IMG/VR virus record: IMGVR_UViG_3300007513_001900
Location: 1-64,000 of that record
Length of the DNA: 64,000 nt
Source: a virus
Reading direction: 5' to 3' (one strand)
The notes beneath the pieces are model-generated. The model saw only the letters and a program-made list of their open reading frames with translations, was not told the origin of the DNA and did no database searches. Numbering within the stretch: the stretch's first letter is position 1; each line of letters opens with the position of its first letter. Positions 10,396 to 39,795 of the stretch are shown piece after piece. The position numbers were made by a program, and so were the translations under genes.

Positions 10396-10668
10396 ATGAA
10401 AATTACTAAAAGACAGCTAAGAAGAATAATTCATGAATCTATAGATGCTGTACAGCTTGAAGAGATATATCTAGATCATGATGCTGCTACTTCCTTGGGA
10501 CTGCCTTACGATAACCGCGGTGTCCAGCACCACTTTTCAAGAGGCGACCTTTGGGATCTTGCAGACATGAGTCAGTATGATGCAGCACATCAAGAAATAT
10601 TTGAGAAGTATAGCCTGACTGGCGTTGATGCCACTGGCAGAGGTTACGGCTGGTGGACACTCAATTGA
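10396..10668 (+). CDS. Tagged small protein 1 (MKITKRQLRRII family)
   Basis: ATG 10396 follows GGAG by 11 bases, a better choice than GTG 10384. The 90-residue product carries the basic N-terminal helix 'MKITKRQLRRIIHE' directly followed by Ser15, giving I-H-E before S, which fits the T4 prohead-protease rule (L/I-x-E before A/S/G). The remainder is acidic and Asp/His-rich with no known domain. It is the only family member far from the 19.5-23.1 kb cluster. I infer a capsid-targeted internal head protein. Confidence 0.65.
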   Translation: MKITKRQLRRIIHESIDAVQLEEIYLDHDAATSLGLPYDNRGVQHHFSRGDLWDLADMSQYDAAHQEIFEKYSLTGVDATGRGYGWWTLN

Positions 10669-10829
10669 ACAGCTATAGCTAAGCTAAGATAGCTCACCAC
10701 TCACAAGCAATAAAAAACATCATAATGCTGACTTATTTATTATGAAACATTCAGAATCCTTCGTGAATAATCCCAATTCCGGAGGATTTTTCAATTTCAC
10801 TTCACGCGCAGTTAATAACAAAATCTATC

Positions 10830-11150
10830 ATGACAGATAACTTATCAATCAAAAACACCCCGGAACATAAAGAGTCTATAGACAAGAAGACTCTAGTAGC
10901 TATAAGATGGCATAAAGACGACACACCTCTCTACGGTCGCGTGACCGCGAACTATTGAAAAGCTAAAACAGAGAGAGGGTATCATATCCTAACAGATATA
11001 TCAGGCAACAAAGTTCCGTTTCTAAAAGCTCATGTTGAGGTCGAGTCTATCAAACCAGAAGACGAGGCTGCTATCATCGAATCAGTGATCCGTGAGACAC
11101 AGCGAGATTGTCGCTGTTGCTGTGGTAACCATATATGTGGGAATTACTGA
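10830..11150 (+). pseudogene. Small gene interrupted by an in-frame opal codon
   Basis: ATG 10830 opens a frame with 'TLVAIRWHKDDTPLYGRV' that stops at TGA 10956-10958 (codon 43). The same frame then continues 64 more codons to TGA 11148-11150, including 'GYHILTDISGNKVPFLK' and a Cys-rich end (C-R-C-C-C-G-N-H-I-C-G). Together the halves make one plausible 106-residue barrel-type protein. TGA terminates many other genes here, so decay, error or read-through are the options. Confidence 0.45.
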
Positions 11151-11626
11151 ATGTTTAGCTCTGAGCTAACGGCTGTGGCCGAATATCCACATGTGGCTAG
11201 CGATGGTAAGGGGTAACTCAGGTCAGTGATAATGAGTAATCTAAACTGCAGCTTAGCTAGGGCTGAAAAAAACTAATCAAGTGATGAGGTGGGCTTAGCA
11301 CCCCCTTTTTCGGGACAATTTCTGAAGTGCCTCGAGACCCAACCCGATATCGGCATCGCAACGCCGTCTCACGGGTGACTGTAATACATTTATTCCGTTG
11401 TGTTCAGCATTCTGTTATGTTACTTTTATTCTGTAATATTATAATAATATTCGCGGTTTGTTATATGAACAATATCGAGTGTTACTTTTATTCTCAGGTA
11501 TATAATTTGCATATGATACAACACGTACATGCATGGTATAGTTATACTATGATAACAAATAAACCCGCGCTATAGAGAATGACGATGTCAACATATATAC
11601 AGCATGTGATTGGAGAAGAAAGAGAA
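11151..11626. other. Non-coding stretch with a weak terminator
   Basis: I see no convincing gene. An 82-codon frame at 11327-11575 has unnatural composition and no ribosome site. At 11288-11310 GGTG pairs with CACC around a 7-base loop and is followed by CCCTTTTT, a possible weak terminator. The rest is AT-rich with several short stop-containing frames. Confidence 0.4.
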
Positions 11627-11863
11627 ATGAAAACAACATCTCTCAAAACAACTCCAGCGCGGTTGCAGCTTCGGCTAGCGCTGATCGATTGCGACTCAGG
11701 CCTTAAAGGTGACAGAATCCACTTGTCGCATGGTGTGGAATCGCGTCTCTCTAGCGTGGGTTTTATTGAAGAGGAGGCCGTGTCTCATTATGTCGACTTT
11801 GAGATCCCGGACAACTCATTATCATACATATGTGACTCATTATCGTACGAATTTGAATTCTGA
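11627..11863 (+). CDS. Doubtful 78-residue protein
   Basis: ATG 11627 lies ten bases after GGAGAAG. The product is weakly plausible ('LQLRLALIDCDSG', 'FIEEEAVSHYVDFEIPDN') and acidic at the end. The 3' part contains a near-repeat of 'GACTCATTATC', unlike typical genes here. I keep it only because of the ribosome site and the lack of another gene. Confidence 0.35.
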   Translation: MKTTSLKTTPARLQLRLALIDCDSGLKGDRIHLSHGVESRLSSVGFIEEEAVSHYVDFEIPDNSLSYICDSLSYEFEF

Positions 11864-12364
11864 CAATATTGTTGACTCAGGGCCGCGCTAATTGTTGATT
11901 CAATTTGCTGTGCTGATTGCTGAGATGTAATTGAATTATTCCTTAAAGTTGTGACGTTGGGCCTCGCGAGCTCCACGAACGACAGCAGCAATTTGCGTTA
12001 TACGATGTTGCCGTTTTTCGCGTTCTGCCGCGGCGGGTGGTAATCTCATCGATGACAGCAGCAATTGCAGCTTTTTTGCATGAATTCAGAATTGCAGTAT
12101 ATGATTGAGGTGTAAATGAGAGCATGACGCTGCAAGATGCAGTTTATAAAGTTGAGCAGTTTCTTAACGTGGAGCAATATCAGCTAAGCCGTACGGCGCA
12201 TTATAAGTGTACAGGTGAACGGGATCTTTCGCTCGCCGGATCCCTGGTAACCACACGTGATCACATTATGGTAACCACGTTAGCGTGATCACATCATGGT
12301 AACCACACACAGCTGCGAGTTGACGCATCGCATATGCAATAAAGTTATATTAATTGTGTTCTGA
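11864..12364. other. Mostly non-coding region with direct repeats
   Basis: About 500 bases contain no well-supported gene. A 13-base word, GACAGCAGCAATT, occurs at 11981 and again at 12054. A 54-codon frame at 12124-12288 starts with ATG after GAGAG but ends inside the GGTAACCAC repeat array (12246-12306). The stretch sits immediately upstream of promoter P6, so it may hold control sequences. Confidence 0.4.
12246..12306. repeat. Three GGTAACCAC direct repeats with TGATCACAT spacers
   Basis: GGTAACCAC occurs at 12246, 12270 and 12298. The two intervals both contain GTGATCACAT(T/C)AT, so the unit is about 24-28 bases long. Each unit carries the palindrome TGATCA and the near-palindrome GGTAACC. 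The array ends about 60 bases upstream of promoter P6 and looks like binding sites for a protein. It could also be an iteron-type element. Confidence 0.6.
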
Positions 12365-12393
12365 GTGCATATCTGTTATCGATGTGGTATAAT
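12365..12393 (+). promoter_or_regulatory. Promoter P6 (GTGCAT-N17-TATAAT)
   Basis: GTGCAT at 12365-12370, 17 bases with GG before TATAAT at 12388-12393. It is 23 bases upstream of ATG 12417. Confidence 0.8.
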
Positions 12394-12416
12394 AGTTATA
12401 TAAGAGGTAACAAACT

Positions 12417-12941
12417 ATGCAAAAGACTCATGCTAACATAACACCCGCTGAGCGTCAAGCATTGCGCGATCGCGACGCCGAGGTTAAACCCCAGTCTTAT
12501 TCTGATAAGCTTCGCGAGGCCAAACAGCGCGCGTTCGAGAATAAAGACATTGCTGACCGGGTTGTCAAGATCAAAGATGAGAAGCGACATGCTAAGCTTT
12601 GCGGTGCGCAACTTAAGAAAAAACTTAAAGCGTCATCCAAATTTGGTGACCGGGGTGGCAAGGTATGGGCAGATAATGATGAAGCCCGTCGTGTCAGAGC
12701 AAACGGCGTTGAACGTCGACGTAAAAACACTATCTGGAATCTAGAATTGGGGTCGATGGTAAAGACAGCGCGTAAAGCTAATTTATATCCTGTGGGTCAT
12801 AAATGGATCGCGTCGCGTGTGGTGCCTAAGGGGACACTGGGGATCTTGGTTGGTGTGCCCTATCAAGACTATGTCGAGGTTATGCTTGATAATTCAATCT
12901 TTCAGATCCGGTGTTCTGCACTGCGACCCTGCAGAGTTTGA
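12417..12941 (+). CDS. Basic coiled protein with C-terminal SH3-like domain (174 aa)
   Basis: An AGAGG ribosome site precedes ATG 12417. Residues 1-100 are highly charged, Lys/Arg-rich and probably helical (TPAERQALRDRD, EKRHAKLCGAQLKKKLK). Residues about 105-174 show 'LGSMVKTARK', 'PKGTLGILVGV' and 'DYVEVMLDNSIFQI', the same barrel type as the small GDxV proteins. The basic arm suggests nucleic-acid binding. It forms a single-gene unit from promoter P6. Confidence 0.6.
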   Translation: MQKTHANITPAERQALRDRDAEVKPQSYSDKLREAKQRAFENKDIADRVVKIKDEKRHAKLCGAQLKKKLKASSKFGDRGGKVWADNDEARRVRANGVERRRKNTIWNLELGSMVKTARKANLYPVGHKWIASRVVPKGTLGILVGVPYQDYVEVMLDNSIFQIRCSALRPCRV

Positions 12942-12972
12942 ATGATATATTTTGCTTATTGTCGCTTGTTTA

Positions 12973-13001
12973 ATGCATAATGCTCGTGCATAGGGTATAA
13001 T
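12973..13001 (+). promoter_or_regulatory. Promoter P7 (ATGCAT-N17-TATAAT)
   Basis: ATGCAT at 12973-12978, 17 bases with GGG before TATAAT at 12996-13001. The leader has AGGG-gatgat-TCCT (13017-13030) and shares TCCTGCCAAGGAAA (13046-13059) with the RadA-like gene leader. Confidence 0.75.
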
Positions 13002-13064
13002 AATAATGTGGAGAGGAGGGGATGATTCCTTCTTTCTCAGCTGACTCCTGCCAAGGAAAAATTA

Positions 13065-14144
13065 ATGGATGTAAAAACTTTCAAAAACGTTGCTGGAAAA
13101 TTCCCAGCTGATATCGCGCTTCTTATGCGTGGACCTACTGGGGTTGGTAAGTCCTTCCTCGGTAAGGCAATTGCCGATGAACTCGGTCTCCCCTTCATCG
13201 ACGTCCGTGGTTCTACCATGTCCGAGGGTGATGTTGGTGGATATCCGGATATCGAAGGGATGAAGGAAACAGGGGTCATGACCTTCTGCATGCCTTCCTG
13301 GTTCATGCGTGCTTGTCGGGAACCTGTTGTCCTGATGCTTGATGAGCTCAACCGCTCTCTTCCTGGTGTCCAACAGTCCTTCTTCCAGCTGGTCCTTGAC
13401 CGCGAGCTTGGTAATGATAAGGACGGTGTCCCACATCGCCTTCATCCCGAGACACGGGTAATTGCTGCTGTTAACCACGGTGCAGAGTATGATGTCAATG
13501 ACATGGACCCTGCTCTTCTCCGTCGTTTCTGGGTTTGTGACCTTGAACCAACTGCAGCAGATTGGATCGATTGGGCTATTGGTTACGGCGTTGATGACGT
13601 CATGGTTGACTTTATCCGTCAGAATCCTGCCCACCTCCGGGTCGACCCCTCTTCAGTTGAGCCTGGTACAGTGGCACCTAACCCTGCTTCTTGGCACCGC
13701 CTCAATGACTCTTTGGGTCATATGGGATGGTCACCCACAAATATTGGTGGTACACGTCCTGATGGCTTTTATGCAGTATGCTCAGGGTTTGTTGGAACTG
13801 AGGCGGCAATTGCTTTTGCTAGCTGGGTAGAGAACTTTGAGATGATCATCACTGCTGAGGACGTCCTTGAGAACTGGGACAACGTTGCGGGTAGGGTTGC
13901 ACTGCTCAATGCTTCGGCTGTTGCTGCTCTAACTGATAAGCTGGCTATCCACTGCAAGGATAACAAGTGGAAGCTCCGTAACGCTCAGAACGTGGCTAAG
14001 TTTGCTCATCTAATCTCTGGTGAGCAATTGGTTGCGCTCTGGAACAAGATCTCTGGAAGTCAAAACCTGCCTAACATCCAGAAGTTGCACAAGCTTATTG
14101 GCAAGACAGTTGTCAAGCATGTTCAGGCGTCGCGTAACGTCTAA
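13065..14144 (+). CDS. MoxR-like AAA+ ATPase
   Basis: The 359-residue protein has a Walker A 'GPTGVGKSFL' (about residues 24-33), a Walker B 'VVLMLDELNR' (about 88-97), a sensor-1 'RVIAAVNHG' and an arginine region 'DPALLRRFW'. These are features of MoxR/RavA-type AAA+ ATPases, which remodel partner proteins and typically pair with a VWA-domain protein; such a partner is the next gene. Residues 150-359 are mainly helical. Codons are noticeably richer in C at third positions than in most of the window. Transcribed from P7 through a hairpin leader, with ribosome site AAGGA. Confidence 0.8.
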   Translation: MDVKTFKNVAGKFPADIALLMRGPTGVGKSFLGKAIADELGLPFIDVRGSTMSEGDVGGYPDIEGMKETGVMTFCMPSWFMRACREPVVLMLDELNRSLPGVQQSFFQLVLDRELGNDKDGVPHRLHPETRVIAAVNHGAEYDVNDMDPALLRRFWVCDLEPTAADWIDWAIGYGVDDVMVDFIRQNPAHLRVDPSSVEPGTVAPNPASWHRLNDSLGHMGWSPTNIGGTRPDGFYAVCSGFVGTEAAIAFASWVENFEMIITAEDVLENWDNVAGRVALLNASAVAALTDKLAIHCKDNKWKLRNAQNVAKFAHLISGEQLVALWNKISGSQNLPNIQKLHKLIGKTVVKHVQASRNV

Positions 14145-14172
14145 GGGATCCCAAACATATCACGCTTGATCA

Positions 14173-14201
14173 GTGCAATAGCCGGCCGGGCGTGGTATAA
14201 T
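14173..14201 (+). promoter_or_regulatory. Promoter P8 (GTGCAA-N17-TATAAT)
   Basis: GTGCAA at 14173-14178, 17 bases with GG before TATAAT at 14196-14201, followed by GTAGTGGAGGGG and a TTTGGAG ribosome site before ATG 14257. Confidence 0.8.
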
Positions 14202-14256
14202 ATATATGTAGTGGAGGGGAACATACCCGTTTTGCTTTCTTTGGAGAATATACATC

Positions 14257-15639
14257 ATGGCTGATACCGGAACCAACGTTGACCTAGCCCCCGTAAAAGA
14301 GGCTACTGCAGATCAAGTTAAGAATTTCAACCTGAACACACACCTGATCAGGCTGATATGGGATGAGCCATTCTTCAGCAAGGTTCTGAGACCTATCACC
14401 AAGGTCATGACAGATTCAATCCCAACTGCTGGTGTCCTAGCTAAGGATGGTGATATCAAGATGTGGTGGAACCCCAAGTTCATGGCCGGTCTTACCACCA
14501 AGCAGGTTAAAGGGTTGCTTAAACATGAGTGTTTTCACCTGGTGTTCGAACATACAACCACACGTCGGCACGAGCCGCATATCGTCTGGAACTACGCGGC
14601 GGATCTAGCTATCAATAGTCTCATTCCTGAGGCTGAGCTTCCTGAGGGTGGTCTTATCCCAGGTCAGGCATTCAAGGCACTGACAGAAGAGCAAAAAGAA
14701 AAGATGGGCGAGGAGGCTGTTGAACGCTATCAGCGGGTATCAGATAAGATTGCTTCTTTCAAGACACGGCTCTCTGCAGAAGAATACTTTGCAATGCTCC
14801 TCGATGTCGCAGAAGATATTGAAAAGGGCCAAGGTGGCCAGGGCACGTGCAACGGTAACTGTCAACCCGGTGATGGTACAGGTCCCCAGTGTGATGGTGA
14901 CTGCAGCTGCGGTGGTGGCATGCCCGGCCCTATGGATATCCATGACGGCTGGGATGAGATGTCAGACGAGGACCGTGAACTGATCAGGGGCAAGATTCGG
15001 AAGTCCGTTGAGGACGCTGTTAAAGATTGTGACCAGAAGGGTTCTTGGGGCACAGTTGGAGCTGACACCCGTCAAGTCTTGAGAGAGCTGATCAGCAATG
15101 AGATTCCCTGGCAGTCAGTTCTCAAGCAGTTTTGTGGCATGACGCGCCGTGCCAACCGTGCTAGCAACGTACGACGGTTGAACAGGAAGTATCCTGGGAT
15201 CCATCCCGGGCACCAGAAGGGGTATACCTCCTCTATTGCAATCTATATCGACCAGTCTGGCTCCATGCGTCAAGATGAACTGGAGCTGCTCTTCGGAGAG
15301 CTTCGGTCACTGGCTAAACACACAGAGTTTGTCTGCTTCCACTTTGACACTAAAGTTGATATCGATAGTGAGACATCATGGCGTAAGGGCAAAACCCCCA
15401 AACTGGTCCGGACAATGTCAGGCGGTACAGATTTCCGGCCTGTGGTTGAACATGCTAACAAGAACGCTAAGCGGTTTGATGGGTACCTTATCCTTACTGA
15501 TGGTGGCGCTGCTGATCCAGGACCGTCGCGTCTCAAGAGGGGTTATATCATCACCCCGGGTCAGAAGCTATACTTTACAGCTGCTAAAAGTGACTTTGTT
15601 ATCAACATGTCGCAGCCCAAGAAAAGGAATGCAGCATGA
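14257..15639 (+). CDS. DUF2201-type putative metallopeptidase with VWA domain
   Basis: The 460-residue protein has an N-terminal domain with the zinc-metallopeptidase word H-E-C-F-H ('KGLLKHECFHLVFEH', about residues 85-99). A Gly/Cys-rich linker follows (about 196-225, CNGNC, CDGDCSCGGG). The C-terminal VWA domain has the MIDAS 'DQSGSM' near residue 333, 'MSGGTDF' and 'LILTDGGA'. This is the DUF2201 plus VWA-like architecture often encoded beside MoxR ATPases. The pair probably acts as a protein-remodelling or maturation machine; the substrate is unknown. The clustered cysteines may bind metal. Confidence 0.8.
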   Translation: MADTGTNVDLAPVKEATADQVKNFNLNTHLIRLIWDEPFFSKVLRPITKVMTDSIPTAGVLAKDGDIKMWWNPKFMAGLTTKQVKGLLKHECFHLVFEHTTTRRHEPHIVWNYAADLAINSLIPEAELPEGGLIPGQAFKALTEEQKEKMGEEAVERYQRVSDKIASFKTRLSAEEYFAMLLDVAEDIEKGQGGQGTCNGNCQPGDGTGPQCDGDCSCGGGMPGPMDIHDGWDEMSDEDRELIRGKIRKSVEDAVKDCDQKGSWGTVGADTRQVLRELISNEIPWQSVLKQFCGMTRRANRASNVRRLNRKYPGIHPGHQKGYTSSIAIYIDQSGSMRQDELELLFGELRSLAKHTEFVCFHFDTKVDIDSETSWRKGKTPKLVRTMSGGTDFRPVVEHANKNAKRFDGYLILTDGGAADPGPSRLKRGYIITPGQKLYFTAAKSDFVINMSQPKKRNAA

Positions 15640-15719
15640 CAGGCCTCAATATGCTTTGGTTCTTTGCCGGCTTCCTGACATGTATTATGGTAGCTACAAT
15701 TGCTGCAGACAGTCAATGA
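15636..15719 (+). CDS. 27-residue membrane peptide
   Basis: An ATG overlapping the VWA gene's stop (ATGA) opens a 27-codon frame that is almost wholly hydrophobic (LNMLWFFAGFLTCIMVA). It could be a short coupled membrane peptide. Support is the overlap and the TM character. Confidence 0.4.
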   Translation: MTGLNMLWFFAGFLTCIMVATIAADSQ

Positions 15720-15757
15720 TTCAATTACGCGCTGCTAATAATAAAAACGTCTGTCTA

Positions 15758-15786
15758 GTGCAAAAGTACTGCACCTAAGGTATAAT
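15758..15786 (+). promoter_or_regulatory. Promoter P9 (GTGCAA-N17-TATAAT)
   Basis: GTGCAA at 15758-15763, 17 bases with GG before TATAAT at 15781-15786. The leader carries the perfect hairpin GAGGA-gatgat-TCCTC (15798-15813) and the shared box TCCTGCCAAGGAAA (15828-15841). Confidence 0.8.
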
Positions 15787-15847
15787 AACAATGTAGGGAG
15801 GAGATGATTCCTCTCTTACAACCTGAATCCTGCCAAGGAAATTATAA

Positions 15848-16603
15848 ATGAAGCTCAACGTACGCCGTGATGATATCAATTTCGGAACCAACATTCTAGA
15901 CGTTAAGGTGCCAAAAGCACTCAAAATCAAAGTCCCATCAGGGCTTGACTACTTCGACTCTGCATTGGGCGGAGAGGGTTTTACTCCTTCTCAGGTCCTC
16001 TTCTTTACTGGTACTCCCGGTGCTGGTAAGACAACCATGCTTCTAGAGTTGGCTGACAGCCTTACCAAGAGCGGTGCTTTGGTGGTCTTCAACACTGCTG
16101 AGGAAAGCCTCTATCAGGTCAAGTTGATCGCCGAACGTCTCAAACTCCGCAGCGGTTTTTCTGTTGGGCAAGAGACTCACGTTCCCACACTGCTGAAGAA
16201 CTGTGATAAGCTCCGGGACAAGTGGGGCAACAAGAACAAGCCCTTCTTCCTCCTGGTGGACAGCCTCCAATGCATGGATGACGGTAAGTACAAGGATGGC
16301 TCGGTCAATCGGGCTTCAGCTGAGCGTTCTTTGGGACTGATTACTAATTATTGCAAAGAGCATTACGTCAATTCTGTTGTCATCGGACAGGTCAATAAGT
16401 CTGGTAAGATGGCCGGCTCTAACAAGATTAAGCACATGGTCGACGCAATGATGGAGCTCTCCGTTGAAGAACGTGACCCTGACCTCCGCGGCTGCCGTGT
16501 CCTTCAAACAGTCAAGAATCGGTTTGGCGGCTGCGGACACACCTTCTTCTTGTCACTGGATGGCAAGGGCTTTACAGAGATTGCCCGGGTATCAGCTGCC
16601 TAA
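15848..16603 (+). CDS. RadA/Sms-like RecA-fold ATPase
   Basis: The 251-residue protein contains a Walker A 'GTPGAGKTTM' (about residues 56-65), 'NTAEES' and the Walker B 'FFLLVDSLQCM'. It also has 'VVIGQVNKSGKMAGSNKIKH' and the RadA-specific 'KNRFGG'. It therefore matches the ATPase core of RadA (Sms), which drives branch migration in recombination, but lacks both the N-terminal zinc finger and the C-terminal Lon-like domain. A stand-alone core like this may serve phage recombination or replication. It shares a leader design with the MoxR gene and the C/G-rich codon style of that block. Confidence 0.85.
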   Translation: MKLNVRRDDINFGTNILDVKVPKALKIKVPSGLDYFDSALGGEGFTPSQVLFFTGTPGAGKTTMLLELADSLTKSGALVVFNTAEESLYQVKLIAERLKLRSGFSVGQETHVPTLLKNCDKLRDKWGNKNKPFFLLVDSLQCMDDGKYKDGSVNRASAERSLGLITNYCKEHYVNSVVIGQVNKSGKMAGSNKIKHMVDAMMELSVEERDPDLRGCRVLQTVKNRFGGCGHTFFLSLDGKGFTEIARVSAA

Positions 16604-16623
16604 CATATACACTAACTAGCCTT

Positions 16624-16689
16624 CCCCAGTCGGAAATACTAGGGACCGGAAGAGCCGATTGGGGATAACCTTGGCTACTCTTCCGGTCC
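16624..16689 (+). ncRNA. H-type RNA pseudoknot candidate downstream of the RadA-like gene
   Basis: Two long helices are interleaved. Stem 1 pairs CCCCAGTCGG (16624-16633) with CCGATTGGGG (16655-16664), 10 bp with one G-U. Stem 2 pairs GGACCGGAAGAG (16643-16654) with CTCTTCCGGTCC (16678-16689), 12 perfect bp. The order A-B-A'-B' with no gap between B and A' is that of an H-type pseudoknot; otherwise the two helices are competing hairpins. It begins 20 bases after the stop codon. No T-run follows, so a plain terminator is less likely. Confidence 0.65.
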
Positions 16690-16803
16690 ACCTTCTTATC
16701 TCCAGGACACAACGACGCGTCGACGTCAAACACGCGCGGTTAACAATAATATCTACCAAGGTATACTAATCTACAATACATTAAACGCAGAGAGCACAAA
16801 CCC

Positions 16804-16977
16804 ATGGACAGATTCCTTAGATCAGAGACATTTGCCGGCCTAGCAACACTAATGAACGGGTACTTCTGCTTTCAAGCACTCAACCAAGAACAGTGGGGGT
16901 GGGCACTTCTATCAGGCGGCCTGTGCTGGCTTTGCGGGAGACACTACTTGGACATGCACGGCAGACCCAGGTATTAG
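16804..16977 (+). CDS. Small membrane protein (57 aa)
   Basis: ATG 16804 opens 57 codons. The middle and end are hydrophobic with many Trp/Cys/Gly residues (WGWALLSGGLCWLCG), suggesting one or two short membrane segments. A possible AGAGAG ribosome site lies about nine bases upstream. A TATACT-like -10 lies near 16760. Function is unknown. Confidence 0.45.
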   Translation: MDRFLRSETFAGLATLMNGYFCFQALNQEQWGWALLSGGLCWLCGRHYLDMHGRPRY

Positions 16978-17283
16978 ATGTATCACACAGATTAGATGTA
17001 TCAGCTCTCAGGGCCCCCTGCAGAGGGGGTCCCACAGAGGGGCCCAAAAACAGCTCCCAGAGCCCCATCTAGAGGGCCCTTCTGCATACTCAGTGGGACC
17101 TTCTGGGGGTAGGTGGCCTAAGTTCAAGCACAAAATTTCTGCGCAGAAAATCGGGAAAACTTTTTACTTTTTACCCACACTAATAAAAATAGATACACTA
17201 GCTTAGTACGAAAATTTTCTTCCGGGAATTTTTGGGTACTTTTACTAGTGCTCAACATGTTATAACTCAGAGGTAATAATTAT
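16978..17283. other. Non-coding region with GC-rich hairpins and a perfect palindrome
   Basis: No gene fits in these 306 bases. At 17011-17033, CCCCCT-GCAG-AGGGGG is flanked by GGG/CCC to form a strong hairpin with one bulge. Next come GGGGC (about 17040) and GCCCC arms plus two GGGCCC sites. At 17136-17149 TTTCTGCGCAGAAA is a perfect 14-base palindrome. T-rich words (CTTTTTACTTTTTACCC) follow. It may be a terminator/operator region or a replication element. Confidence 0.5.
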
Positions 17284-17553
17284 ATGTTTGAATTGAATTG
17301 GAAATTCGCATTAATCATACTGGTAGTCAATGCTTCATTATTCAGCTTGATATTTTGGGTCATGAATCATCCGGATGGAAAGGTAGGCAAGTTTTTCGAA
17401 AGACGAAGCCGCCGGTATAGAAAATCAGTACGTCGAACCACTGGTAACACTAAAGTTAATCGTACCACCGGCAAACGTCCACTCCCCATGCAAAGAAATC
17501 GAAAGAAAGCTCGCCCAACAGTAGATGCCGAGACATCTTCAAACGACGCTTAG
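17284..17553 (+). CDS. Small membrane protein with long basic tail
   Basis: The 89 residues have an N-terminal membrane helix (about 7-27, FALIILVVNASLFSLIFWV) followed by about 55 residues rich in Arg and Lys (RRSRRYRKSVRRTTGN, RKKARP). The ribosome site is AGAGG upstream of ATG 17284. A membrane anchor with a basic cytoplasmic arm could bind nucleic acid or acidic proteins. Function is unknown. Confidence 0.6.
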   Translation: MFELNWKFALIILVVNASLFSLIFWVMNHPDGKVGKFFERRSRRYRKSVRRTTGNTKVNRTTGKRPLPMQRNRKKARPTVDAETSSNDA

Positions 17554-17554
17554 C

Positions 17555-17740
17555 GTGTGCACACATACGTCCTATTCAGACATATGCCCAGAGCGCTCTT
17601 CAGAGAACTGCAGGATCGTCACACCAGCTATCTGTGTCACCCTAAACGCTATATACGGTGGAAACAAGGCGGCTAAGCCTACAATCAATCTAGCAGCGCC
17701 TGGCATGCCTTATAACCCGTTTAAAGCGGGCCCGGGGTAA
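17555..17740 (+). CDS. Doubtful 61-residue protein
   Basis: A GTG one base after the previous stop opens 61 codons with several cysteines and the end 'AAPGMPYNPFKAGPG'. No ribosome site is obvious. It ends just before the next gene, which fits tight packing, but codon evidence is slim. Confidence 0.3.
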   Translation: MCTHTSYSDICPERSSENCRIVTPAICVTLNAIYGGNKAAKPTINLAAPGMPYNPFKAGPG

Positions 17741-17745
17741 ACACA

Positions 17746-18003
17746 GTGTCAGGTATGGTGGGTGATGCTGTTGTATTTCTAGATGACACTGTTACATATG
17801 ACAGCAATGGTACCGTTGTGTTAATTCCGGAAGGGACAATTGGCTTAGTTGTACAACGACGAGATGAGTTGCGGACTGTGGTCGTTACTGATGTTGGGTG
17901 TGTTGTCGCAGCGCCCAATCATATACGTCGTCTAGATAAACATGCTCTCATATATACGAAAGAATATTCGGCCGAATTATCAGCACTTTCAGGGACGCAA
18001 TGA
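17746..18003 (+). CDS. Small SH3-like GDxV protein
   Basis: GTG 17746 follows the previous stop closely. The 85 residues contain 'MVGDAVVF', 'PEGTIGLVVQRRD' and 'RTVVVTDVG', a typical small barrel, with a short helical tail. It is one of the members of this type spread over the first 26 kb. Confidence 0.6.
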   Translation: MSGMVGDAVVFLDDTVTYDSNGTVVLIPEGTIGLVVQRRDELRTVVVTDVGCVVAAPNHIRRLDKHALIYTKEYSAELSALSGTQ

Positions 18004-18153
18004 TGATCACACTGGCAATCGTCTTACTATTTCACATTATGTACTAGACTAATTTATATAAGTGCTGGACTACGCAGTAGAATAATATTATCAGTACTAA
18101 GTACCTATAAGTACCTATCCTTACAACAACACCCTATACAAGGCTTACACATT

Positions 18154-18621
18154 ATGATATCTGATGATACTCCCACACTTACTATGACGGGTTCGGTTAC
18201 AGACACCTTGATGGCTGGAATGGGTGTTGCTCCGTTGGGCGGTATTATGCTTTTGCCTGGTGGTGATATCAATATTGCACTGACAAATTTTCCAGTGGAT
18301 CCCGCTGATGAAGAGGAGTGGTCCCAAGCAGCCGATATGGTTGCATTCCTCACACACTGCCTTTCTCGTCATGATTGGTGGGATGAGTGGATATATCACG
18401 AAGAAAAAGACCGTGAAGAGGTATTCAACGAGCTAGAAAAAATCGATCGTGAGATTATGCGATCTAAGCTTACTGTGCTTAAGGGCGGCCTTGATGATAA
18501 ATTGAGTAAGAGTATCGGTAAGAAGGCTGACAGCGGCAAGGATGGCGATTCGCATACCCATACGTTGATCAACACACCTTCGCATCATAATAATTCTGAC
18601 AATTCATTTGCAAATGAGTGA
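18154..18621 (+). CDS. Unknown acidic protein (155 aa)
   Basis: The product has a Gly/Met-rich N-terminal part, a central helical stretch with many Trp/His/Glu residues (HDWWDEWIYHEEKDREEV) and a His/Ser/Asn-rich disordered tail. No domain is recognised. The gene at 18634 follows closely and its start has GGAG upstream. Confidence 0.55.
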   Translation: MISDDTPTLTMTGSVTDTLMAGMGVAPLGGIMLLPGGDINIALTNFPVDPADEEEWSQAADMVAFLTHCLSRHDWWDEWIYHEEKDREEVFNELEKIDREIMRSKLTVLKGGLDDKLSKSIGKKADSGKDGDSHTHTLINTPSHHNNSDNSFANE

Positions 18622-18633
18622 TGGAGTAAATAA

Positions 18634-19074
18634 ATGAGTGACAGTCGTAGACCTCAATCTAGAGTAGGCACCAGGCCAGGCCGGCCTGGTGAAGAGACTA
18701 GCAATCCCTCGCAAAGCAATTCCTCATACCAAGCAGACAGTTCGATTCCTCATGTCTCTGCACCTGATCCTCGTCATCGAGATGCAGAGGTTATGTTTAG
18801 GGACATGAGTCAAGACTTTATTCAAGCACAACAATCTGTCAATCGAACTGTCAACGTCTTGAGATCTAAAATGAGGGTCATGCATGAGAGGCTTGGTAGA
18901 AGTCTAAATGCACTTGAAGTACACGGTGCTGGTGCTTCACTAGTTGAATTGCCCGGTGTTCATGAAGATGGTGTTGCTGTGGAGCGCATCTCAAGACAGC
19001 TGCAAGACCAGCTCGAAAGCATGGAGCGAGCATACGACACTATTCGTGCTGTTACTAGACGAGAAAGAGTCTGA
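18634..19074 (+). CDS. Unknown protein with coiled-coil C-terminal half (146 aa)
   Basis: Residues 1-55 are low-complexity, rich in Ser, Arg, Gly and Pro. Residues about 55-146 are helical with heptad-like spacing (FIQAQQSVNRTVNVLRSKM, ISRQLQDQLESMERAY). The pattern suggests a structural or scaffold-like small protein. It may be co-transcribed with 18154-18621. Confidence 0.55.
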   Translation: MSDSRRPQSRVGTRPGRPGEETSNPSQSNSSYQADSSIPHVSAPDPRHRDAEVMFRDMSQDFIQAQQSVNRTVNVLRSKMRVMHERLGRSLNALEVHGAGASLVELPGVHEDGVAVERISRQLQDQLESMERAYDTIRAVTRRERV

Positions 19075-19132
19075 CGAATGCAGCTTATGGGTATGGTGTC
19101 TGACTATTCTTCCTATTCTTCCTAAAAACGTA

Positions 19133-19258
19133 ATGACGCGTACCCAACGTATAAGGAATACTCGGGAGAGTGGACATCAAAGATGTGCCGATTCCCGTGA
19201 TTACTACACTGTATTACTTGAATTCTTCGCTGCGCAACTCGATCGCCTTCGGCGATAA
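19133..19258 (+). CDS. Possible 41-residue basic peptide
   Basis: ATG 19133 opens 41 codons rich in Arg and ending 'AAQLDRLRR'. There is no clear ribosome site. The final codons form an ATCGCC/GGCGAT hairpin (19237-19254 area). It is weakly supported. The following 230 bases up to 19488 hold nothing I can support. Confidence 0.25.
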   Translation: MTRTQRIRNTRESGHQRCADSRDYYTVLLEFFAAQLDRLRR

Positions 19259-19488
19259 GGGTCTATAGAGATATGCAAGGTTACATGATGAATGTTTGCT
19301 ATGGTGTTGTTTCGCCAAGCAACAGAGACAAACCTAATCATCTCTACAACCCTTCCGAGTGATATCAGAGGATCTAGATTTGCAATTATAATTCAGATTA
19401 TGGAACGTCTATTGCGTCATTGATAGTTATTGCTATAACATATAGTGATTATCAGCTATTTATAAGAAGCGACAGAGGAGTATTACGT

Positions 19489-19755
19489 ATGAAAGTTACC
19501 AAAAGACAACTAAGAAGAATTATCAAAGAAGAGAAAGCAAAGATCCTTTCAGAGAAGAACCCTGACGGGACAATATCTGATAATGAAGACAACGAGAGAT
19601 ATCTTTTAATGGCCGAAGTTGAAGAGAAGCTCAATGAAATACTTGACTACATAATCAGCGAGTCAGAAAGAATCGGCGGCGGATTTCGCGGCCCGGGCAT
19701 TAAGAAACAAGCTTTTCGACTCTTGGCCGACATGATCCACAGCTATAGGCGATAG
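19489..19755 (+). CDS. Tagged small protein 2
   Basis: ATG 19489 follows GAGGAG by eight bases; an upstream ATG at 19420 has no such site. The 88-residue product begins with the shared tag 'MKVTKRQLRRIIKEEKAK'. The following 'ILSE' is followed by Lys, so its cleavage-site match is imperfect. The body is acidic and helical ('EVEEKLNEILDYIISE'). It is the first of ten consecutive tagged loci. Confidence 0.65.
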   Translation: MKVTKRQLRRIIKEEKAKILSEKNPDGTISDNEDNERYLLMAEVEEKLNEILDYIISESERIGGGFRGPGIKKQAFRLLADMIHSYRR

Positions 19756-19772
19756 GCAAAAGGACTAATAAA

Positions 19773-20204
19773 ATGAAAATTACAAAGAGACAACTTAGAA
19801 GAATTATCAAAGAAGAAAAAACTAAACTTCTTGATGAAACAAAAGCGCGTAGAATTATTCGCAAAGTCATAAGAGAAAGCTATGAGGATAGAGATGACGA
19901 CCGCGAGTACCGACGAGGTCTTGCAGATAATCTGGCCGCCATGCCTGAGCCGCTCTCTAGAGAGGAAATACGCCGCCGCGTTCACCAGTTCCTTATTGAC
20001 AAAAAATATTTCTCCCCAATGTCTCCTTCACACCCCTTCATCGATATGTTCAAGCCGCTGCCTCCAGGCGCGCCCCGCGACGCACAGACCTCACTAGGCG
20101 CTCTCAGGGCTCTCGAGGCTGCAGTTGCCTCCGGAGAGATAGACTGGGCTGACATGGATGAAATAGAAGTTGTATGGCGTCAAATCGATCGTATGGCTGA
20201 CTGA
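19773..20204 (+). CDS. Tagged small protein 3
   Basis: The 143 residues start with 'MKITKRQLRRIIKEEKTK' and have 'VIRE' before Ser38, an L/I-x-E/S site downstream of the tag. The body is charged and Pro-containing with a helical end. The ribosome site is AAAGGA. The tag DNA is nearly identical to that of neighbouring copies, which suggests recent duplication or conversion. Confidence 0.65.
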   Translation: MKITKRQLRRIIKEEKTKLLDETKARRIIRKVIRESYEDRDDDREYRRGLADNLAAMPEPLSREEIRRRVHQFLIDKKYFSPMSPSHPFIDMFKPLPPGAPRDAQTSLGALRALEAAVASGEIDWADMDEIEVVWRQIDRMAD

Positions 20205-20251
20205 TATATAGACTTATATAGACTTAGAAAACACTAAAGGGGACAATTTAA

Positions 20252-20527
20252 ATGAAACTAACAAAATCAAAACTTAAAGAAATCATAAGAGAAGAAATTC
20301 AGAAGTTGAATGAGAGTGTCGATACTTTGTATGTATATGCAACTACATCGAATGACCATAAAAAATTCAAAAAGTGGTTATCTAAAAGTGAATTTTATGG
20401 AGAAGAATTCAGAAACGATTATTTTAAGTTTGATGTTTCTGACCAACACGATGCTGATTCACTTGAACGAGAAATTGATAAATCCATAAATAAATTAAAT
20501 ATATCGGTTAGATATGAAGTGGAATAG
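20252..20527 (+). CDS. Tagged small protein 4
   Basis: The tag here is a diverged form, 'MKLTKSKLKEIIREE', followed by 'KLNE' before Ser22 (L-N-E before S, a good prohead-protease site). The 70-residue remainder is a small mixed fold ('LYVYATTSNDHKKFKKWL', 'ISVRYEVE') that resembles no family I know. A GGGGA ribosome site precedes the ATG. Confidence 0.65.
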   Translation: MKLTKSKLKEIIREEIQKLNESVDTLYVYATTSNDHKKFKKWLSKSEFYGEEFRNDYFKFDVSDQHDADSLEREIDKSINKLNISVRYEVE

Positions 20528-20538
20528 GAGCAAATATA

Positions 20539-20808
20539 ATGAAACTAACTAAATCACAACTACGAAAAATTATTAAAGAAGAGACAGAAAAAGTAATGGA
20601 AATGGGCGCCGGGATCCCAGGCGGCTCGAGCGACGTGGACATTTTGATCCAAGATTCTTTAAACGCAATTGTAGATGAGTACGGGACGTCGTTGTTGGAT
20701 TTAAAGGACACTCTCGACAGGATGATAGAAGACGACGCGAATTCTCCTATCGACGACACCGAAGGTTACGACGTCGACTTCGACGCCGCGAACCGGCGAT
20801 TTATGTAA
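20539..20808 (+). CDS. Tagged small protein 5
   Basis: The tag is 'MKLTKSQLRKIIKEE', followed by 'VMEMGAGIPGG', which lacks a clean L/I-x-E/A-S-G site. The rest is strongly acidic (many Asp/Glu), helical in the middle. The ribosome site AGGAG is 9 bases upstream. It belongs to the tandem family. Confidence 0.65.
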   Translation: MKLTKSQLRKIIKEETEKVMEMGAGIPGGSSDVDILIQDSLNAIVDEYGTSLLDLKDTLDRMIEDDANSPIDDTEGYDVDFDAANRRFM

Positions 20809-20825
20809 TCATTCAGGAGAATAAA

Positions 20826-21089
20826 ATGAAAATTACAAAGAGACAACTTAGAAGAATTATCAAAGAAGAGAAGGCTAGAGTATTGAGAGAAGCTGGCCCG
20901 AATCTCCCACCAACATACCCACTAAATCCTAGTGGCGTCGAATCAATGCTCGCACAGAAGATGGCTAACCTTGATCCGCTCGTCGACGGATTCGACCGAG
21001 ACTTCATGAGACTAGCAGAGGCCGTTATTGAACTAGAATATAGCGGCTGGGGAGGCATTATTGATGCCTTGATCGATTTAGGGGACTAA
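20826..21089 (+). CDS. Tagged small protein 6
   Basis: The 87-residue product starts 'MKITKRQLRRIIKEEKAR' and then has 'VLRE' before Ala23 (L-R-E before A, a good protease site). The body is a helical domain with a Pro-rich beginning. AGGAG lies eight bases before the ATG. Confidence 0.65.
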   Translation: MKITKRQLRRIIKEEKARVLREAGPNLPPTYPLNPSGVESMLAQKMANLDPLVDGFDRDFMRLAEAVIELEYSGWGGIIDALIDLGD

Positions 21090-21090
21090 A

Positions 21091-21315
21091 ATGAAAATTA
21101 CAAAAAGACAGCTTAGAAGAATCATTAAAGAAGAGAAGCAAAAGCTTAACGAGGGCGCTCGAGAAATGGCGGCGCTCTTGAATGCTGTCGATGCTTTTAA
21201 GGCCGCCGGCGGTGCCAATCAGGGGTATGTCATCGATGTACTCAGGACTATCGCTGATGAGATGGAAAACGAGGAATACGGTACCGACATCAGCGACTTC
21301 ACCGGTCGACGGTAA
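21091..21315 (+). CDS. Tagged small protein 7
   Basis: The 74-residue product starts one base after the previous stop, with 'MKITKRQLRRIIKEEKQ' and 'KLNE' before Gly22 (L-N-E before G, a good protease site). The body is a short helical domain ending 'DISDFTGRR'. Confidence 0.65.
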   Translation: MKITKRQLRRIIKEEKQKLNEGAREMAALLNAVDAFKAAGGANQGYVIDVLRTIADEMENEEYGTDISDFTGRR

Positions 21316-21329
21316 ATAGGAGAACTCAC

Positions 21330-22034
21330 ATGAAAATCACGAAACGACAGCTTAGAAGAATGATATCAGAGGCAATGCCCCGCGGGAGTGTACCAGACAT
21401 CGTTGGGGCTCTTACCAATGTGCCAGGCGGAAATATTCAAAACTTGGTCGACGAGTATAAGAAATGGGCCATGGAGTATATGGGTACATCTAGTGGGCCC
21501 AACTCATCGTCTGTTCTCGCGACGTTCCTGGTGGATCAAGGGCTAGACCAAGGACCCACAGCTGAAGACATCATTACAGACATGTCCTCAGCCATGGAGT
21601 TCGATAAGCACGATGTTAATCGTGAAGTATCACACGCAAGAAGAGAGTACGACGCAGGACGGACTCTTCCTGAGGGAAAAGTGAAAATTACAAAACGACA
21701 GCTTCATAGAATCATCAAGGAAGAGAAAGCTAAGCTTCTCCGCGAATCAGTTGCAGATATACGCCATTTTGAAGAGGCAGCAGACAAATGTGCTGAACGT
21801 ATGTCTGACTTATTTTATAATGATATGATGAAGCTTTATGATGAAGAGCCTGATGCCTTTGCACGCCCTGTCCCGGGCTCGGAGGCAATGACTCGCACCG
21901 AAAAAGGTGTTTGGGAACAGCAGGTTGTATACGCTACTCAAGAACTTGAAAATGCTATTTCGTTTTCCATCGCTCAAGCCATCGAGGAAATAGAAATGAA
22001 ACTACATGATGGCCAGTATCACGACGACAGGTAA
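21330..22034 (+). CDS. Tagged protein 8: fusion of two tagged units
   Basis: This 234-residue frame carries two tags. The first, 'MKITKRQLRRMISE', has Ala15 right after it (I-S-E before A). A second tag, 'VKITKRQLHRIIKEE', starts at residue 118 and is followed by 'LLRE' before Ser. The second unit has a GTG at 21681 and an upstream GAGGGA, so it may also be translated on its own (117 aa). Either the stop between two neighbours was lost, or the internal tag is processed as part of a polyprotein. Confidence 0.65.
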   Translation: MKITKRQLRRMISEAMPRGSVPDIVGALTNVPGGNIQNLVDEYKKWAMEYMGTSSGPNSSSVLATFLVDQGLDQGPTAEDIITDMSSAMEFDKHDVNREVSHARREYDAGRTLPEGKVKITKRQLHRIIKEEKAKLLRESVADIRHFEEAADKCAERMSDLFYNDMMKLYDEEPDAFARPVPGSEAMTRTEKGVWEQQVVYATQELENAISFSIAQAIEEIEMKLHDGQYHDDR

Positions 22035-22038
22035 TATA

Positions 22039-22443
22039 ATGAAGATCTCAAGAAAACAGCTCAGAAAAATTATTCGAGAAGCTCAGTGGGGAAGATTTAC
22101 TGGCGGTGCAGCACCGCTGGACGAGCCGCCTTTGGATTCCGGAAAGATGGATCCTGAGCAGCAGCAGAAGGTATTCGATATCTTGGTTGATACAGGCTCA
22201 GACCCTAAAAAGCTTCTTGCTTCCGGCGAATTTCCTGATGTCGTAACAGAGGTGAGGCTCAACGAGAGAGGAACTGGTAATCCCGCGCTTCGGGCAGATG
22301 AGCAGGCAATAACAAAAGCAGTAGCGGACTTTGTTGACAAGTACATGATGACTATGGGCATGAACCCAGGTGATGATCGTGACTTACAAAGAGCTCGACG
22401 CGTCGTTGATGATATCGTCGGCGCAGTATTGGATGTGTTATAA
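22039..22443 (+). CDS. Tagged small protein 9
   Basis: ATG 22039 lies just after the previous stop; the longer frame from 22006 would start inside that gene. The tag 'MKISRKQLRKIIRE' is followed directly by Ala15 (I-R-E before A, a good site). The 134-residue product then has a Pro/Gly-rich stretch and a helical end. It shares its last base with the ATG of the next member. Confidence 0.65.
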   Translation: MKISRKQLRKIIREAQWGRFTGGAAPLDEPPLDSGKMDPEQQQKVFDILVDTGSDPKKLLASGEFPDVVTEVRLNERGTGNPALRADEQAITKAVADFVDKYMMTMGMNPGDDRDLQRARRVVDDIVGAVLDVL

Positions 22444-22961
22444 TGAAAATTACAAAGAGACAACTCAGAAGAATTATTAAAGAAGAGCTTGACATTATTA
22501 ATAATGAAACCGGCCAGGTGTTTGAATTTGGTGACGAACCACTAAGCTCACATACCCCCGAAGCTGCATGGCCTGAATTGGCTAAGCGCTTAGGCATCAA
22601 ATCGCTACAAGATGATCTAGACGACGATGCAATTTATGTTAGTGGCGAAGATTGGGATAAGCTTGATAATGAAGTGATGGGTAAACGCAATGATAGAAAT
22701 CGTAAGCGAGCTTATAAAGAACGTGAAGCTGAAAGAGCCAGGCTAAACATTGACAACCTCAAAGCCCGTCTCGATCAATGGGCTGATGATGCTGGGGCAG
22801 ATTATTCTGCTGATAACCCTGGCGTAGATATGCAGAGTATCGCTTGGGATCTTGCTTCAGGAGCAAAATATTCATTTGCTCCTGATGAGTGGGACGAGCT
22901 AGTCTGGGAATTTGATGATAGTGAAGATGATCTGATAACATATATTGCAGAGATGATCTAA
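22443..22961 (+). CDS. Tagged small protein 10
   Basis: The 172-residue product starts 'MKITKRQLRRIIKEELD' with ATG overlapping the previous TAA (TAATG). The nearest candidate site is 'INNE' before Thr, an imperfect match. The body is acidic, with a helical Arg/Lys/Glu-rich part (residues about 75-105) and a C-terminal domain 'FAPDEWDELVWEFDD'. It is the longest single-tag member. Confidence 0.65.
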   Translation: MKITKRQLRRIIKEELDIINNETGQVFEFGDEPLSSHTPEAAWPELAKRLGIKSLQDDLDDDAIYVSGEDWDKLDNEVMGKRNDRNRKRAYKEREAERARLNIDNLKARLDQWADDAGADYSADNPGVDMQSIAWDLASGAKYSFAPDEWDELVWEFDDSEDDLITYIAEMI

Positions 22962-22997
22962 TAACATATATCCCATATAACGTTACAGAGTAATTAA

Positions 22998-23111
22998 ATG
23001 AAAATTACAAAACACCAGCTAAGAAGAATTATTAGAGAAAAGAAGGCTAGGTTACTTCGACAGTCGATTTCTGATGTGCATAATTTGCTAAGTATATATG
23101 TTACCTACTAA
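22998..23111 (+). CDS. Tagged peptide 11, truncated member
   Basis: A 37-codon frame starts 'MKITKHQLRRIIREKKAR' and continues 'LLRQ' before Ser, where the conserved Glu of the protease site is replaced by Gln. It then stops at TAA 23109-23111, inside the start of the next gene. It looks like a decayed member whose body was lost. Confidence 0.5.
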   Translation: MKITKHQLRRIIREKKARLLRQSISDVHNLLSIYVTY

Positions 23112-23611: not shown

Positions 23612-24067
23612 ATGAGCAGCCTCTTTCCAATTACTCGAATCAACGAACTGGGATCCATGGACCAAAATTTTGACACTTTTTTTAACACACTGTTTGGTGA
23701 TTCATCAAATCAGACTCGCATTTCTAAAAACAGCGCAATATCTACTGTGCCAAGAGCTAACGTTTCGAAAAACGATCAAGGATACTTGATTACACTAGCA
23801 GCACCCGGATTATCACGAGAAGACTTTGGTATCAATATTGAAAATAATACACTTTCTATAACATCGAATTATGAAGATGAGTATGTAGAGAAAAAATCTA
23901 ACTACACGACTCAAGAATTTGAATATAGCACTTTCACCAGGACATGGTCATTGCCCGAAGGCATAAATCCTGATTCTATTAGTGCTCGTTATGAATCCGG
24001 ATTACTCAAAGTTGATATTCCTGCAGGTGGTGATATCACAAAGAAGGTAATTATCAAAGTAGAATAA
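23612..24067 (+). CDS. Small heat-shock protein, Hsp20 family
   Basis: The 151-residue protein has an alpha-crystallin domain at about residues 48-140 ('PRANVSKNDQGYLITLAAPG', 'LSITSNYED', 'FTRTWSLPEGI', 'ARYESGLLKVDIPA') and ends with an I-x-V type C-terminal anchor. Hsp20 proteins hold unfolding clients in soluble complexes without ATP. Phage Hsp20s are known in marine T4-like phages. A perfect terminator follows the gene. A TTTGCA-N17-ATTATG sequence near 23539 may be its promoter. Confidence 0.9.
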   Translation: MSSLFPITRINELGSMDQNFDTFFNTLFGDSSNQTRISKNSAISTVPRANVSKNDQGYLITLAAPGLSREDFGINIENNTLSITSNYEDEYVEKKSNYTTQEFEYSTFTRTWSLPEGINPDSISARYESGLLKVDIPAGGDITKKVIIKVE

Positions 24068-39433: not shown

Positions 39434-39795
39434 GGGGACGCACCGGTTTCGACAGGGTAGTCTAGAAGGATAGTGCAAGTGCTCTAATGATGATTCGAGC
39501 TAAAAGATTTATCAAAAAAATAATTGCTAATAACAATAATTTCTACAACGTAGCTCTAGCAGCTTAGTAGTGGGGTTTTCAATAACCTTATTACCCAATA
39601 TTGAATAATAGGTAGAGATCCTATGAAAATAACAAATCAAAAATGGTTACCCTGGAAACAGGTGGAATCCGAGGCAACATAGGAATGGGAATTTTGTTGC
39701 TACCTTTTTAGTTTGGGAATAAGCTAAATAAACTTGTGAATGACTTGAATTTAACGTTATCTTGGACAGGAGTTCGACTCTCCTCGTCTCCACCA
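39434..39795 (+). ncRNA. ssrA: tmRNA
   Basis: The 362-base RNA begins GGGGACGCACCGGTTTCGAC and ends with a T-arm 'GGAGTTCGACTCTCC' and encoded CCA at 39793-39795. The acceptor helix GGGGACG/CGTCTCC has the G-U third pair needed for alanine charging. The tag frame opens with the resume codon GCT at 39526 and reads ANNNNFYNVALAA to TAG at 39565-39567, a typical '-ALAA' degradation tag. The RNA rescues stalled ribosomes with SmpB. No smpB gene is seen in the window, so host SmpB would be needed. Confidence 0.95.

Follow-up and report, generated by a model that had tools for sequence, protein, structure and literature searches.

A recurrent N-terminal tag as a probable capsid-targeting sequence of small acidic proteins in large uncultured phages

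The window analysed here, bases 1-64000 of a viral contig 71,077 bases long, raises the question of why a series of small proteins with unrelated bodies should all begin with the same short helix. A preliminary description had reported this N-terminal tag in eleven loci with twelve copies, and every copy was recovered: the tag profile matches exactly 12 times on the 71,077-base contig, in 11 ORFs. The tag follows the pattern M-K-I-T-K-x-Q-L-K/R-x-I-I-K-E and forms an amphipathic basic helix of 14 residues. One tagged ORF lies at 10396, and the others are packed closely from 19489 to 23111. They are listed below with their candidate cleavage sites, an arrow following the glutamate whose position is given.

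10396..10668, plus strand: tagged ORF 1, 90 aa; IHE↓S at 14, LEE↓I at 23
19489..19755, plus strand: tagged ORF 2, 88 aa; LSE↓K at 22
19773..20204, plus strand: tagged ORF 3, 143 aa; LDE↓T at 22, and IRE↓S at 35 in a second tag-like stretch
20252..20527, plus strand: tagged ORF 4, 91 aa; LNE↓S at 21
20539..20808, plus strand: tagged ORF 5, 89 aa; VME↓M at 21 only
20826..21089, plus strand: tagged ORF 6, 87 aa; LRE↓A at 22
21091..21315, plus strand: tagged ORF 7, 74 aa; LNE↓G at 21
21330..22034, plus strand: tagged ORF 8, 234 aa, with two in-frame tags; the first tag ends in ISE↓A at 14
21681..22034, plus strand: inner second tag of ORF 8; GTG start with GAGGG just upstream, LRE↓S at 22
22039..22443, plus strand: tagged ORF 9, 134 aa; IRE↓A at 14
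22443..22961, plus strand: tagged ORF 10, 172 aa; IKE↓E at 14 only
22998..23111, plus strand: degenerate tagged ORF 11, truncated, 37 aa; site lost, with LRQ in its place

ORF 8 is probably a fused gene with a possible extra start at 21681, since its inner tag has a GTG codon with GAGGG upstream. The bodies behind the tags had been called acidic, and every tagged body in the window does carry a net negative charge. The motif L/I-x-E before A, S or G had been counted in nine of the twelve copies; the motif itself stands (IHE↓S, IRE↓S, LNE↓S, LRE↓A, LNE↓G, ISE↓A, LRE↓S and IRE↓A), and the count is corrected to eight. In ORF 2 and ORF 3 the L-x-E precedes a different residue (LSE↓K and LDE↓T), one copy has VME↓M, and orthologues of ORF 10 carry IIxE↓A or IIxE↓G. 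In the window alone, a downstream [LI]xE with P3 at 16-26 is found in 7 of 12 copies, compared to 1.6 in shuffled sequences (P = 0.0002).

The tag is not confined to this contig. A DNA pattern built for it matched at least 119 stretches in IMG/VR. In 84,980 prokaryote genomes it matched just 8 stretches, which lie on a small number of contigs of four assemblies. Because two of these four assemblies also carry an S77 protease, their tag-matching contigs are probably phage. We extracted at least 349 tagged ORFs from the fetched loci, at least 343 of which are at least 40 residues long; these proteins opened by the tag are spread over at least about 110 viral contigs. Their bodies form 266 clusters, 222 with a single member, with the tag rather than the protein as the constant element. 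Pfam searches with 103 diverse tagged proteins returned four single matches, the best to an HD domain and possibly on a chance-tag protein, and no recurrent enzymatic domain. Neither Pfam nor PHROGs gave a convincing match for the tagged proteins of the window.

The candidate sites were assessed in a sample of 316 non-redundant tagged proteins, nearly all from outside the window, in whose detection residues beyond tag position 14 had played no part. An [LI]xE with P3 at 16-30 is present in 192 of the 316, against 100 ± 6.6 expected from column-preserving shuffles (maximum 122 in 1000). The enrichment at P1 is strong for glutamate only, LxD being without enrichment, and is greatest at a spacing of two. 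The glutamate falls at position 22 in 25%, at 21 in 13%, at 18 in 9% and at 19 in 5%, with about 1% at most other positions. This enrichment, specific in both position and residue, bears out the earlier proposal that the tag is associated with the L/I-x-E cleavage rule of T4 gp21. The tag end is itself I-x-E, and where alanine follows it (A15, giving IIxE↓A) a later [LI]xE is present in only 7 of 40 proteins, compared to 185 of 276 others (odds ratio 0.10, P = 3e-9); this exclusion is seen again when each of the two main subtypes of the tag is taken alone (P = 9e-5 and 2e-4). E14 is present in 157 of 168 tags when the search does not demand it, and all eight tags that lack E14 but have I/L/V at 11-12 possess a later [LM]xE. 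In the ORF 2 family, L-[SAN]-E stays directly before NPDG despite one-residue changes in length, one of eight members being without it. Such behavior is predicted by a site that is needed once, and not by a helix or composition effect. In 40 of the 316 proteins there is no recognised second site and E14 is not followed by a small residue, which counts against reading the tag as a targeting sequence.

A search of the window's 71,077-base contig, which is a fragment, yielded no T4-type head genes. A second contig, IMGVR_UViG_3300008952_002784 (136,953 bases, here G107), starts at window base 20,715, agrees with the window contig at 99.995% over 20 kb (one mismatch in 20,000 bases) and is 100% identical to it over window 60,258-71,077 (10.8 kb); on this sequence identity, the two contigs are the same phage. 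G107 contains a T4-type head module with terminase, portal, Peptidase_S77, small core proteins, scaffold and gp23, and the presence of this module rules out that the phage lacks an S77 protease. The lack of a gp21-class protease in the genome was the outcome that the preliminary description had named as counting against its proposal; the enzyme is found at

G107 107,668-108,282: Peptidase_S77, gp21-type (E = 2e-26)

Aligned with T4 gp21, it conserves His85 and Ser140, which we take to be the catalytic residues of the T4 enzyme, and it matches PDB 5jbl (E = 1.3e-15), a chain with Ala where the His stands, as expected of a catalytic-site mutant. The major capsid protein (gp23) of G107 has QVLKE↓ASS, matching T4 FLTE↓A in place and in rule, and the capsid proteins of relatives conserve LENQA..(V/L/I)L(R/K)E followed by (A/S/Q) in 18 sequences. 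The protease also occurs in relatives that share a 649-residue protein at 72-76% identity. Of the tag contigs, 20 of the 24 large and 13 of the 36 smaller ones contain S77, whereas a random set of 46 viral contigs contains it in 4. A search of the 27 tag contigs negative for S77 found no gp23 in any of them, and their missing protease is therefore best explained by fragmentation. The association of tag and S77 partly reflects descent, since every tag carrier that has a head module falls in a single T4-type lineage; S77-bearing contigs without tags also exist, which counts against a targeting sequence.

In most relatives, a protein of 130-150 residues with the N-terminal pattern MAKxxRxxLKxLxKECLVEILxEG lies directly downstream of the protease. 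We named it a putative core protein on the basis of this position and of its numerous LxE motifs, a feature of T4 gp67 as well. By hhalign, the tag aligns with the N-terminal helix of this protein (95.7%, P = 9e-9), which likewise ends in L-x-E↓G, and not with scaffold or capsid N-termini; the tag HMM alone gives a weak match to the core proteins. In T4 IPIII, targeting depends mainly on positions 4 and 7 and processing on positions 8 and 10, and an aspartate in place of the P1 glutamate blocks this processing (PMC9026906). When the two sequences are aligned on the glutamate, IPIII positions 4, 7, 8 and 10 correspond to L8, I11, I12 and E14, which are among the most conserved tag positions. 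In the predicted structures, a linker of low confidence joins the tag helix to a body that is separate from it. An AlphaFold model for the ORF 10 family (pLDDT 77.7) has a helical body and a low-confidence linker after the tag; a fold search with this model returned no significant match.

We propose that the tag helix mimics the N-terminus of the prohead-core protein, by which tagged proteins would be drawn into the prohead core during assembly. The gp21-like S77 protease would cut after L/I-x-E, at the tag end (I12-x-E14↓A) or alternatively 4 to 8 residues further (E at 18, 19, 21 or 22), freeing a small acidic body that would stay in the head, be packed with the DNA and probably be injected with it. 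In our judgement the tag is very probably such a capsid-targeting sequence of the T4 kind, by which the protein is recruited, cleaved by S77 and its body packed and probably injected. From the sequences we strongly infer head targeting and cleavage of the tagged proteins, and injection of the bodies with the DNA is plausible by analogy. A broader reading, that the tag is a general head-import label, core-helix-like and perhaps borrowed, which packs and injects up to about 40 fast-exchanged small proteins per genome, has about an even chance of being right.

The frequency of LxE in the bodies bears on whether they are cargo or part of the prohead. Relative to expectation, LxE stands at 1.02x in tagged bodies, whereas scaffold reaches 1.68x and core protein 3.5x, so that the bodies do not show the multiple LxE sites of a gp22/gp67-type scaffold or core protein, the shortfall being modest when measured against small conserved proteins alone. 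With LxE at this level while LxD reaches 1.36x, the bodies are, by composition, not built for digestion. They also turn over fast, with a mean shared fraction between close relatives of 0.09 vs 0.21 for other ORFs (a background that includes spurious ORFs), which is unsuited to a structural role. Their poverty in LxE relative to scaffold and core, together with this turnover, favours stored cargo of the T4 internal-protein type. It is thus unlikely that the tagged proteins serve as additional scaffold or core, aiding prohead building and then being digested and lost, never delivered, even though the tag resembles a core-protein N-terminus, the bodies are acidic as in scaffold proteins (mean charge about -5.7 per 100 residues), and T4 gp22 and gp67 are cleaved to fragments (PMC9026906).

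One structural model predicts a single helix over tag and LxE together (residues 5-23), and cleavage itself is a prediction; both would suit a tag that docks onto a non-head partner (host membrane, RNA polymerase, tail or replication machinery), with L-x-E as a part of the helix. However, helical periodicity cannot account for the enrichment of E and not D or for the spacing of exactly two. The exclusion between A15 and the later site, the later site in every tag without E14, and the same layout in the core protein adjoining the protease would likewise be left unaccounted for, and we consider docking very unlikely. Even less credible is a 5' DNA cassette, selfish or neutral, that passes by recombination among neighbouring short genes and whose peptide has no selected role: positions 8, 11, 12 and 14 are constrained at the protein level in contigs of great diversity, and the site is retained through indels, both of which require selection on the peptide. 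Recombination may nevertheless be the route by which the tag spreads, as tag codon likeness is 0.65 within a contig vs 0.55 between contigs (0.37 for body codons), the window tags at 19773 and 20826 share identical first 44 bases, and one ORF is a two-tag fusion.

The capsid-targeting reading invites comparison with T4, where IPI, IPII, IPIII and Alt, which have a capsid-targeting sequence (CTS), likewise combine a short N-terminal propeptide with several unrelated small bodies and are likewise cleaved after L/I-x-E by an S77 protease. The resemblance in layout noted in the preliminary description was confirmed: IPII and IPIII begin with MKTYQEFIAE↓A, and their hydrophobic and I-x-E positions align with the tag, ten residues being too few to establish descent. 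The T4 propeptide has 10-19 residues, compared to a 14-residue tag with sites mostly at 14 to 22, and T4 has few tagged genes, compared to 5 to 41 per large contig among the matches listed here. The bodies of T4 IPI-III are basic whereas those described here are acidic, which counts against the comparison, although basic charge is not part of the CTS mechanism. Unlike the T4 CTS, the tag often has a second, later cleavage site and resembles a core-protein N-terminus. The best reading is a working mode like that of the T4 capsid-targeting system, from which the tag sequence, the acidic cargo and the very high copy number differ.

In the giant phages SPN3US and phiKZ, packaged proteins lose N-terminal propeptides to gp21-like proteases (gp245, gp175). 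The propeptide is short in two SPN3US proteins (20 and 24 residues) but long in most (111-254), and, unlike here, a common tag across dozens of small proteins is not described in the passages drawn on (PMC10052503). A search of phage genomes with the tag profile, as suggested earlier, gave no match in T4, 13 in the huge phage LR756508.1 and a single one in Flavobacterium phage immuto, whose gp23/S77 head is related to that of the window's relatives; the immuto match is gp080, MKKSQLRQIIKE↓A, with no function annotated, and the predicted cut in the immuto capsid protein follows IVSE. A tblastn search of cultured phages with the tag peptide returned no match, which the low-complexity filter may have masked for a 22-residue, lysine-rich query.

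We found no account of the tag or of CTS-like families in marine phages in the open literature, an absence that is not proof; as far as that search reaches, the family is undescribed, as had been claimed, and its principle is known from T4. If the capsid-targeting reading is true, the tag would be a second type of targeting peptide, beside that of T4, for loading proteins into phage heads, and a 14-residue signature would suffice to recognise, from sequence alone, the cargo packaged in the heads of large uncultured phages. Hundreds of domain-less 'hypothetical proteins' would become a defined class, with a direct handle on the proteins that enter the host with the DNA. On the broader reading of a general head-import label, the tagged genes would also supply a catalogue, readable in the sequence itself, of candidates for early effectors or anti-defence proteins. 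The likeness of the tag to the N-terminus of the core protein offers a testable mechanism for the origin of such labels.

Several further features were observed in the window and in related contigs. Upstream of the tag cluster, an AAA ATPase is followed by a DUF2201 putative metallopeptidase/VWA-like protein (window 13065-15639); a search of 16 large tag contigs recovered the latter in 10. A small heat-shock protein of the HSP20 family (window 23612-24067) is encoded directly past the cluster, and a complete tmRNA gene (window 39434-39795) specifies the tag peptide ANNNNFYNVALAA. The two contigs of the same phage, otherwise almost identical, differ at window about 47920-48570, in tail-fibre-like genes. 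The T4-type portal gene of G107 (L429:4179-9833, equal to G107 101179-106833) has 1,884 codons and contains three intein-splicing stretches and an HNH domain. In contig G021, the prohead protease is split by an intein with a LAGLIDADG domain (L163:9229-10956, minus strand), and some relatives carry two adjacent, near-identical gp23 capsid genes (L161:14569-16467 and 16561-18450).
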